DNA of 64,000 nt from contig NZ_BAABWK010000002.1 of the NCBI RefSeq assembly GCF_040362765.1, positions 1 through 64,000 of the forward strand, read 5' to 3'. The notes beneath the pieces are model-generated. The model was given only the letters and a program-made list of their open reading frames with translations. It was not told the origin of the DNA and did no database searches. Within the stretch, counting starts at the first letter, position 1, and each line of letters opens with the position of its first letter. This stretch comes from Pyruvatibacter sp. HU-CL02332 (GTDB lineage Bacteria; Pseudomonadota; Alphaproteobacteria; CGMCC-115125). Shown one piece after another: positions 55,186 through 58,031 of this stretch. The position numbers were made by a program, and so were the translations under genes.

Positions 55186-55365
55186 AACGCCGTTTTCCCT
55201 TGTTTTTAGGCCTGATTCTCTCGGTGAAACCTGCCTGCTTAAACAGTGCCTTAAACCTTTTAGCCCACAGTCGGCAAAGTTGAAGGGGAAGAGTGTCGCC
55301 AATCCGGGTGGGCCAATTCTCCGAAATCAGAGATTTTGCCTGTTAAGGCACCAGGAGAGACCAGA

Positions 55366-55731
55366 ATGTCGAAGCGCGTTTTGATCGTCGAGGACAATGA
55401 GCTGAACATGAAGCTGTTTCATGATCTGCTTGACGCCCATGGGTATGAAACCCTTCAGACACGAGACGGCATGGAAGCGCTGGAGATTGCGCGCTCCGAA
55501 CGCCCTGATCTCATCTTGATGGATATTCAGCTGCCGGAAGTGTCGGGCCTTGAGGTCACCAAGTGGCTCAAGGAAGACGACACCCTCAAGCAGATCCCCG
55601 TGGTGGCGGTTACGGCCTTTGCTATGAAGGGTGACGAGGAAAAGATCCGCCAGGGTGGCTGCGAAGCGTACATTGCCAAACCGATTTCGGTTGCGCAGTT
55701 CATGGAGACCGTTCAGCGGTTCCTCAACTAG
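55366..55731 (+). CDS. divK: Cell-cycle response regulator DivK
   Basis: A 121-residue single-domain receiver. Acid pocket Asp10 and phospho-acceptor Asp53 ([13 protein letters not shown]), Thr in [14 protein letters not shown] and Lys in AYIAKPISV are all present. DivK connects the kinases DivJ, PleC and DivL to CckA-CtrA. CAGGAGAGA precedes ATG 55366. It lies 25 bases before pleD, the standard alphaproteobacterial pair. Confidence 0.96.
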
Positions 55732-55756: not shown

Positions 55757-57130
55757 ATGACGGCACGTGTCCTGGTGGTTGATGACATCCCTGCGAATGT
55801 CAAACTGCTCGAAGCAAAACTGACTGCTGAGTATTTTGACGTTTCAACGGCATTCAACGGTCGTGAAGCGCTTGAAGCTGCGACAACTGAAAAACCCGAT
55901 ATCATTCTTCTTGACGTTATGATGCCTGAGATGGACGGCTTTGAAGTCTGCCGCCGTCTTAAATCCATGCCGGAAACTCAGCATGTTCCCGTCATCATGG
56001 TGACGGCGCTTGATCAGCCTGCTGATCGCGTGACAGGGCTTGAGGCTGGCGCTGACGATTTTCTGACAAAACCAGTCGATGACATCGCGCTGATGGCGCG
56101 GGTGCGCAGCCTGGTACGGCTCAAGCTCATGACGGACGAGCTACGTATGCGCGAGACGACCAGCAACCAGCTGGGTCTTATGGATGAAGCCGAAGCTCTG
56201 CACAGAGCTGACGCCGCCATGGGGCGTGTTCTGGTGGTTGAGGACCGTGAGACATCTGCACGCCGTATTGCAGAGAGCCTACGTGAGCAAAACCGTGTCA
56301 CGATAGAGAGCGATGCCCGTGAGGCATTGGTTCGCGTAAGCGGTGAAGATTATGACCTTGTGGTGGTCAGTCTGTCTCTTGAGCGCTCGGATGGGCTTCG
56401 TTTCTGCTCGCATTTGCGATCTGAAGAGCGCACGCGAAATACTCCAATTCTGGCCATCGTTGAGAATGGCGACACGACGCGGCTGGTGCGCGCACTCGAT
56501 ATGGGTGTGAACGACTATCTGATGCGTCCGGTGGATCGCAACGAACTGACGGCCCGTGTCCGCACGCAGCTCAAGCGTAAGCGGTATCAGGATGTGCTGC
56601 GGCAGAACCTGCAGTTGAGCCTGGAAATGGCCATTACGGACCCGCTGACGAACCTGTACAACCGTCGCTACATGGAAAGCCATCTGAGCACGCTTGTGCA
56701 GCGGGCGGCTGACCGGGGTAAGGCAATTTCATTGCTGATCGTCGATATCGACTTCTTCAAGGCCGTGAACGATACCCATGGCCATGATGTGGGCGATGAT
56801 GTTCTGCGGGAGTTCGGTGAACGTCTGGCGCGCAATGTGCGCGGAATCGACCTGGCTTGCCGGTATGGCGGGGAAGAATTCGTGGTCGTGATGCCTGATA
56901 CGGACGTGGCTTTTGCGAATACGGTGGCAGAACGGCTGCGCAAGGGCATCGCGGACGAATCGTTCAATGTGGGCGGCGGTGTAGGGGCACTCGACATCAC
57001 AGCCTCCATCGGCGTGACGTCACTTCAGAGCCCCACCGAAAGTGTGGACCAGTTCCTCAAGCGGGCTGATCAGGCGCTGTATCGCGCGAAGCGCGAAGGT
57101 CGCAACCGGGTCGTTTCCGAAGCTGCCTAA
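55757..57130 (+). CDS. pleD: Response-regulator diguanylate cyclase PleD
   Basis: The 457-residue product has a first receiver (1-120) with Asp53 in IILLDVMMPEMDG, a second, degenerate receiver (about 155-280) in which the phospho-acceptor region reads VVVSLSLERSDG without the Asp, and a C-terminal GGDEF domain with RYGGEEFVVV and the I-site RGID five residues before it. This is exactly the PleD plan, a pole-development cyclase activated by phosphorylation-driven dimerisation. Follows divK. Confidence 0.97.
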   Translation: MTARVLVVDDIPANVKLLEAKLTAEYFDVSTAFNGREALEAATTEKPDIILLDVMMPEMDGFEVCRRLKSMPETQHVPVIMVTALDQPADRVTGLEAGADDFLTKPVDDIALMARVRSLVRLKLMTDELRMRETTSNQLGLMDEAEALHRADAAMGRVLVVEDRETSARRIAESLREQNRVTIESDAREALVRVSGEDYDLVVVSLSLERSDGLRFCSHLRSEERTRNTPILAIVENGDTTRLVRALDMGVNDYLMRPVDRNELTARVRTQLKRKRYQDVLRQNLQLSLEMAITDPLTNLYNRRYMESHLSTLVQRAADRGKAISLLIVDIDFFKAVNDTHGHDVGDDVLREFGERLARNVRGIDLACRYGGEEFVVVMPDTDVAFANTVAERLRKGIADESFNVGGGVGALDITASIGVTSLQSPTESVDQFLKRADQALYRAKREGRNRVVSEAA

Positions 57131-57579
57131 TCGGCCGGATATTTTTTCAGATCAATCCATCAAGTGATGCATTTGCTTTTGCAGCAGATGCATCTCAACA
57201 ACTCCGCACACCTATGTGTGGAAAGAATGTGGATAACAACGCGTTTGCATGAAGAAAGATGGTTAACGTCATAATACTTTTGCAGTTTTCGTTCCGAAGT
57301 ATCCATTAAATACTTGCCAGTTCTCGGACGGCTGATAGGTTTTTGGTGCTGGTGTCTTTTTGGGGGAGATGCTGGCAATAGCGCCTTGGGACTGCGAGTG
57401 GGGATTTGCGGGACCGGTGCCGGACGGGGATCAGTTTTCTGATATTCAGTCTGGCAAATGGCTGCTGAAAACGGGGGGCGTTGCCTTTTTAGTGAGGGGA
57501 TCGCCGTTACGAGCTCCTGTTTCGATCAGGCTGCCGCATCGCCAGATCACATGAAGCAGGAAAGCAGGTGGACCGCAGG
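57131..57579. other. AT-richer intergenic region after pleD with DnaA-box sequences
   Basis: No gene is supported here. A perfect DnaA-box sequence, TGTGGATAA (TTATCCACA on the minus strand), is at 57228-57236, with a weaker TGTGGAAAG at 57217-57225, one helical turn away on the same strand. Two inverted repeats flank them: GATGCA/TGCATC (57166-57194) and AAGTAT/ATACTT (57297-57315). The block is richer in A and T than its surroundings. Confidence 0.5.
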
Positions 57580-57733
57580 TTTCCGGGGTTGAATAGGCCT
57601 CTTTTGGGCCCGGAAAAATGCACTATCGGCTTTAACGCTCGTCACCGTGGCATTCGCCGGGCACCAGCCGCATCTGGTCCGGCACTTGCGGTGGACTTAC
57701 CGGCCGGGGACAGGTCTTTGACCGACCCCGGCC
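57580..57733 (+). ncRNA. Candidate structured RNA upstream of the rpmG terminator
   Basis: Three strong helices follow one another. TTTCCGGG/CCCGGAAA closes at 57580-57616. A bulged rod runs 57641-57696, with GTC-ACCG/CGGT-GAC outside and GCCGG-ACCAG/CTGGT-CCGGC inside. GGCCGGGG/CCCCGGCC with an inner GGTC/GACC lies at 57702-57733. The bidirectional terminator at 57781-57815 follows. This density of helices without a reading frame suggests a non-coding RNA; the strand is uncertain. No known family was recognised. Confidence 0.35.
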
Positions 57734-57777
57734 GCCCGGTTTCTTAGGAACTGTCTTCAAGTATTTGATTTTTAACG

Positions 57778-57816
57778 ACAAAAACGCCGCCGCGATTTCT
57801 CGCGACGGCGTTTTTG
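57778..57816 (-). terminator. Bidirectional terminator after rpmG
   Basis: ACGCCG-C-CGCGA and TCGCG-A-CGGCGT form a stem with one C-A mismatch and a short loop, flanked by AAAA on the left (57780-57784) and TTTTT on the right (57811-57815). It thus works in both directions. On the minus strand it ends the rpmG transcript, 48 bases after its stop. Confidence 0.9.
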
Positions 57817-57863
57817 TATTCGTTCCAGTCTCCGACCGCTGGTGAGATATCCAGCGCTTCAGG

Positions 57864-58031
57864 CTACTTGATTTTTGCTTCCTTGAACTCGACGTGCTTG
57901 CGCACGACGGGGTCATATTTTTTCACGACCATCTTCTCGGTCATGGTGCGCGCGTTCTTTTTGGCAACGTAGAAGTAGCCAGTGTCCGCGGTGCTCTGAA
58001 GCTTGATCTTGATCGTTGTTGGCTTAGCCAT
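57864..58031 (-). CDS. rpmG: 50S ribosomal protein L33
   Basis: A 55-residue protein read from ATG 58031 to TAG 57864-57866: [20 protein letters not shown], then [20 protein letters not shown] and a basic end EFKEAKIK. It has no CxxC pairs, so it is the zinc-free form. The position near pleD and rnr is normal in alphaproteobacteria. It is followed by a strong terminator. Confidence 0.96.

Follow-up and report, generated by a model that had tools for sequence, protein, structure and literature searches.

What is encoded between pleD and rpmG in Pyruvatibacter sp. HU-CL02332, in a spacer of 734 nt lying within the window that we analysed (the whole stretch of 64,000 nucleotides)? The initial annotation, made from the letters of the DNA, had placed a possible new small RNA there, with three GC-rich helices, one of them a bulged rod reminiscent of 6S or other structural RNAs, and a bidirectional terminator. 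Our best explanation, which we consider probable, is that the spacer encodes one trans-acting sRNA, a diverged orthologue of EcpR1 with two tandem SL1-SL2 units behind a genus-specific leader, which would be transcribed and would act as an antisense regulator in the manner of EcpR1. The spacer is flanked by two convergent genes, and a DivK-like response regulator (55336-55731) lies upstream of pleD:

55757-57130, plus strand: pleD, the upstream flank (NCBIfam PRK09581 PleD, 681 bits against a cut-off of 474)
57864-58031, minus strand: rpmG, ribosomal protein L33, the convergent flank (NCBIfam TIGR01023, 73 bits against a cut-off of 23.95)

The helices and the bidirectional terminator claimed for 57580-57816 were all found at their positions, as a bulged rod (~57575-57621), a hairpin (57643-57693), a GC hairpin (57701-57734) and a terminator hairpin, whose 18-bp arms are 94% complementary, lie 4 nt apart and have T-runs on either side:

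57778-57817, both strands: bidirectional intrinsic terminator, common to the sRNA and to rpmG on the minus strand, called from its arms, T-runs and conservation

A pattern scan for terminators did not list 57778-57817; the hairpin persists in the other genomes of the genus despite altered sequence. Folding also exceeds chance: 57560-57822 is more stable than its shuffles on both strands (z = -4.6 on the plus strand and -5.7 on the minus strand, with 0/200 shuffles equally stable), the terminator hairpin adding to both scores, and 57345-57740, which leaves the terminator out, gives z = -3.9 with 0/100 shuffles as stable. That there is no RNA gene at all, only a GC-rich spacer of the ordinary sort that shares a terminator and forms hairpins by composition, would fit a GC content similar to that of the rest of the window (56.6% versus 57.3%). 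It is nonetheless very improbable given the stability that remains even without the terminator, the covariation in excess of shuffles and slides, and the conservation of one hairpin loop, that of SL1a, on wholly different stems.

These last two points come from comparison within the genus, which makes it very probable that the folded stretch is a real small-RNA gene. This genome is assigned to an order that is sampled by four genomes, all of one genus (G000, G001, G002 and G003), and the element occurs at the same place in the four of them. Its pairings are kept, with compensatory changes, in 3/3 of the other genomes. In the four-genome alignment, 95.9% of the cells of the consensus structure pair, versus 38-49% with partners slid; two-sided pair changes amount to 17, against a shuffled mean of 7.8 (0/500 shuffles reach 17), and the covariation score is 0.272 versus 0.195, statistics that are supportive and not overwhelming because the sample is small, with 93% identity between two of the four genomes, and because the same sequences served to derive the structure. 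The SL1a loop sits in a hairpin in 4/4 genomes, on differing stems; in G001, whose SL1a is misplaced by the multiple alignment, a wholly different stem (GGUUUUGGGG/UCCCAGGACC) surrounds an unchanged GCCGCAUC loop. Of the initial annotation, the structured small RNA with a bidirectional terminator at its end is supported by conservation, covariation and a family of homologues at the same place, and the helices are confirmed, while the extent it gave covers only the 3' half of a conserved sequence that spans 57313 to 57817. Coding content was rejected: a 64-aa ORF starting with TTG (57360-57554) is intact in G003 and frame-broken in G002 and G001.

Regarding the kind of RNA, the bulged rod is of about the right kind for the 6S RNA that had been suggested. 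However, the real 6S RNA is located elsewhere in the same genome, above cut-off (G000:C1:661802-661959, 65.7 bits), and Rfam gives no 6S match (RF00013) in the spacer, which refutes this reading and leaves it a negligible probability. No other Rfam family comes near its gathering score in the spacer either, lax settings included; CrfA, RcsR1, Cyano-2 and other sub-threshold matches were rejected, being far below gathering and mostly lying over the terminator or the GC hairpins.

A conserved RNA is seen in several spacers of pleD relatives, and Rfam assigns it to RF02500 (Atu_C6), that is, EcpR1, also named SmelC291, SmrC10 or sra33. EcpR1 is a regulatory RNA by which stressed rhizobia slow their cell cycle. 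In Sinorhizobium it is encoded between divK-pleD and rpmG; stationary phase, stress and the stringent response (ppGpp) all induce it. It consists of an SL1 with the invariant loop UCCGCCGCAUCU, an SL2 whose loop has the motif UCCUCG, and a terminator, with loop 1 repressing dnaA and gcrA (PMC4414408; the family is surveyed in PMC3927594). RF02500 is present in nine of the 385 sampled genomes of the class, from three families, and it occupies the same spacer and strand in Mesorhizobium, Rhizobiaceae and Rhodobiaceae loci. The same search gives none in the four genomes of our genus; in the window, RF02500 has no match up to E 10 (the Rfam gathering score being 60 bits). The element studied here does lie where EcpR1 lies, between pleD and rpmG. 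Among the pleD-rpmG spacers read, CCGCATC occurs in all those with EcpR1 and in 4/4 of the genus; among spacers lacking EcpR1, most of which are shorter than 300 nt, it occurs only in the 73-nt L143. The genus spacers carry it twice, 127-134 nt apart, and the distance from the first copy to GCCTC is 56-63 nt, versus 50-54 in typical EcpR1. In dinucleotide shuffles, two copies of CCGCATC in the spacer have P ~0.001, and CCGCATC followed by GGCCTC at 40-75 nt has P 0.0003-0.00075 in each of three spacers. Compared with the canonical UCCGCCGCAUCU, the core GCCGCAUC is found in two hairpin loops in 4/4 genomes, with the flanking loop letters altered in both. The loop pattern RATAGGCCTCTTTTGRNCC, searched in 385 genomes of the class, gave this genus and three hits with one mismatch (L102-L104) in surroundings that seem unrelated.

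We then have to ask whether homology can be detected in both directions. Model R1 is a covariance model made from 12 EcpR1s and holding no sequence of this genus. Run without filters on the 734-nt spacer, R1 has its best match at 57640-57740 (17.3 bits, E 5.5e-4) and its second-best at 57511-57605 (11.0 bits, E 0.011), in tandem and both on the plus strand; these scores of 11-17 bits lie far below the 60-bit Rfam gathering score and owe their significance solely to the restriction of the search to the orthologous spacer. When R1 is run on 75 kb comprising test and control loci, a Hyphomicrobium EcpR1 comes first and the genus fills ranks 2-4, with G001 scoring lower, at 11.7 bits, among the controls. 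The Hyphomicrobium EcpR1 (L021:6074-6187, 31.1 bits with R1) is itself below the Rfam gathering threshold and has an altered SL2 loop motif. Genome-wide, R1 scores 15-20 bits elsewhere, and the listed hits of this search lack the spacer, which its pre-filtering of candidates evidently dropped. No second EcpR1 turned up in the order, since the listed R1 hits (L208-L211) sit at unrelated loci that differ from genome to genome, and a search of 327 genomes of the class with R1 added no further families with EcpR1. Model R2, built from the downstream unit (unit b, below) of the four genus genomes only, gives just 19 hits in 58.8 kb; among them, EcpR1 is matched end to end in 8/11 loci (binomial probability ~2e-9 with a generous target area). 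Homology is hence detected both ways for unit b and in one direction for the upstream unit a, on which R2 gives a partial match of 1.9 bits. Weak scores and genome-wide rivals mean that the case rests on orthologous position together with the two-way match, and not on score alone.

Since it is absent from Rfam yet appears as a diverged relative of EcpR1, the element is probably a strongly diverged, doubled variant of a known family rather than a new kind of RNA. The description as a new small RNA therefore holds in that nothing in Rfam matches at a useful score, and gives way in that a known family, RF02500, has a diverged relative here. EcpR1 has so far been described from several families of Rhizobiales; a relative missed by Rfam would now be present in a separate alphaproteobacterial order, and it would show that the locus can alter its architecture and keep the seed loop.

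From 5' to 3', the element is arranged as a leader (57348-57508), SL1a, SL2a, SL1b, SL2b and the terminator (57778-57817). Its two candidate units are the following:

57511-57621, plus strand: EcpR1-like unit a, with SL1a at 57515-57561 (loop UGCCGCAUC) and SL2a at ~57575-57621 (motif GGCCUCUUUUG); second-best R1 match, and motifs
57640-57740, plus strand: EcpR1-like unit b, with SL1b at 57643-57693 (loop CCGCAU) and SL2b at 57701-57734 (variable stem, loop motif lost); best R1 match, and R2

Unit b is a well-supported orthologue of EcpR1. Unit a is likely to be a second such unit, though with less certainty, as this comes from one weak match and motifs, with R2 giving only 1.9 bits. Alternatively, there could be a single EcpR1 orthologue (unit b and the terminator) with an unrelated structured leader or a separate sRNA ahead of it, in which case the GCCGCATC and GGCCTCTTTTG hairpins would not make a second unit. 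This would agree with unit b being the stronger match to R1 and the sole unit backed by R2, and with the fact that EcpR1 of S. meliloti is itself a 101-nt form processed out of longer transcripts (PMC4414408). However, SL1a aligns with the canonical SL1 as TCAGG-C-GCCGCATC-CC, the loop motif of SL2a is SL2-like and nearly canonical in its spacing (GGCCUCUUUUG where EcpR1 has GGCCUCCUCG), and it is unit a that R1 picks as its second-best match in the spacer, so that we regard a single unit as unlikely. In SL2b, the stem is variable and compensated and the motif is missing. The SL1a loop and the core of that of SL1b are 78-100% unpaired in the predicted ensemble.

Taken as a doubled EcpR1, the element shares with RF02500 the pleD-rpmG location, the strand of pleD, an SL1 with GCCGCAUC in its loop, an SL2 with a variable stem, an intrinsic terminator and a noncoding nature. 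It differs from it in having two SL1-SL2-like units that RF02500 does not detect, an SL1b loop cut to 6 nt by extra pairs, no loop motif in SL2b and GGCCUCUUUUG as the motif of SL2a, a leader of ~170 nt with G-rich loops and a predicted length of ~470 nt (versus 171 nt), and in belonging to a genus from an order distinct from that of the sampled genomes bearing EcpR1. Extra seed copies are not unique to this genus: the EcpR1 of G243 (L124:1493-1622), a member of another family, has a second GCCGCATCTCT inside its SL2, although it is a single SL1-SL2 unit recognised by RF02500.

Upstream of the units, conserved hairpins extend to ~57348, behind a promoter-like element:

57313-57339, plus strand: promoter-like element CTTGCC ... 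GATAGG, conserved in 4/4 genus genomes
57348-57376, plus strand: leader hairpin La, loop ...UUUUUGGGGGAG..., folding in 4/4 genomes
57391-57411, plus strand: leader hairpin Lb, loop GUGGGGAU, folding in 4/4 genomes, with an invariant loop
57471-57508, plus strand: leader element Lc, ACGGGGGGCG ... GGGGAUCGCCGUU, nearly invariant in the four genomes

The promoter-like element reads CTTGCG ... GCTAGG in two relatives, and a scan for the sigma-70 consensus did not report it, so the call of a putative promoter is made from conservation only. Together with the plus-strand matches of R1, it points to transcription in the direction of pleD. Helix 1 of La shows 97.9% pairing, its pair changes being one-sided, and among the pleD-rpmG spacers read La is found in this genus only. 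The GGCG/CGCC pairing predicted in Lc is invariant, so covariation gives no test of it. Motifs AAAACGGGGGGCG and GGGGATCGCCGTT are conserved after La and Lb. Over the whole leader (57348-57508), the G-rich loops GGGGGAG, GUGGGGAUUUGC, AAAACGGGGGGCG and GGGGAUCGCCGUU are almost invariant and, among the spacers read, confined to this genus.

Such loops recall RNAs of the CsrB/RsmZ type, which likewise have several G-rich hairpin loops, and the element could be a sequestering RNA whose GGGGA-bearing loops bind an RNA-binding protein. The leader loops UUUUUGGGGGAG, GUGGGGAU and GAGGGGAUCGCC are indeed its most conserved parts. Still, CsrA is found in 0/4 of the genus genomes, in a search where control genomes having CsrA do score, so the G-rich leader cannot serve CsrA; moreover, the 3' half has no G-rich loops. 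We deem this reading, which would now call for an unknown protein partner, improbable.

Under the EcpR1 reading, a plus-strand transcript of ~470 nt, or shorter pieces processed from it, would start from a promoter near 57313-57339 and stop at the terminator (57817), and its GC-rich loops would pair with the leaders of cell-cycle mRNAs, by analogy with EcpR1. The most likely function would hence be that of an EcpR1-type antisense regulator. CcnA of Caulobacter, an sRNA that uses a C-rich loop to act on cell-cycle regulators (PMC8959179), offers a likeness of kind. As to the target, the best candidate is dnaA, whose translation SL1a could block by kissing the loop of a leader hairpin ~20-30 nt upstream of the start codon. 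In 3/4 genomes this hairpin has a loop with GCGGCAG complementary to SL1a, the perfect complement being of 7, 7 and 11 nt in G000, G003 and G002, where 2, 7 and 0 of the 81 leaders of window ORFs that served as controls pair equally well. G001 shows no such preference of SL1a for dnaA (54/81 control leaders are as good), so that dnaA is a candidate and not a demonstrated target. It is possible, and we propose it only tentatively, that the RNA is a tandem EcpR1 in which the ancestral loops have been split (SL1 and the SL2 motif in unit a, SL1 only in unit b) and a genus-specific G-rich leader fused, giving a multivalent molecule that would kiss the loop preceding the dnaA start. In our best explanation, unit b would be a duplicated copy that lost its SL2 loop motif. 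Duplication of an sRNA and partition of its loops, with a possible action on the initiation of replication, can be put to the test at this locus.

The dnaA leaders (L109 in G000, L204 and L110 in G003, L111 in G002, the minus strand of L205 in G001) have their hairpin directly 5' of the ribosome-binding region, with a varying stem and a loop that contains GCGGCA in 4/4 genomes. As a target, gcrA finds no support, the duplexes predicted for its leaders being no better than those of controls in all four genomes. The gcrA leaders (L105, L106, and the minus strand of L107, L108) share a long inverted repeat, CCACAACATCTC ... GAGATGTTGTGG, in 4/4 genomes, and in 3/4 of them a TTAA-N7-TTAA box resembling a CtrA site lies between the arms of the repeat.
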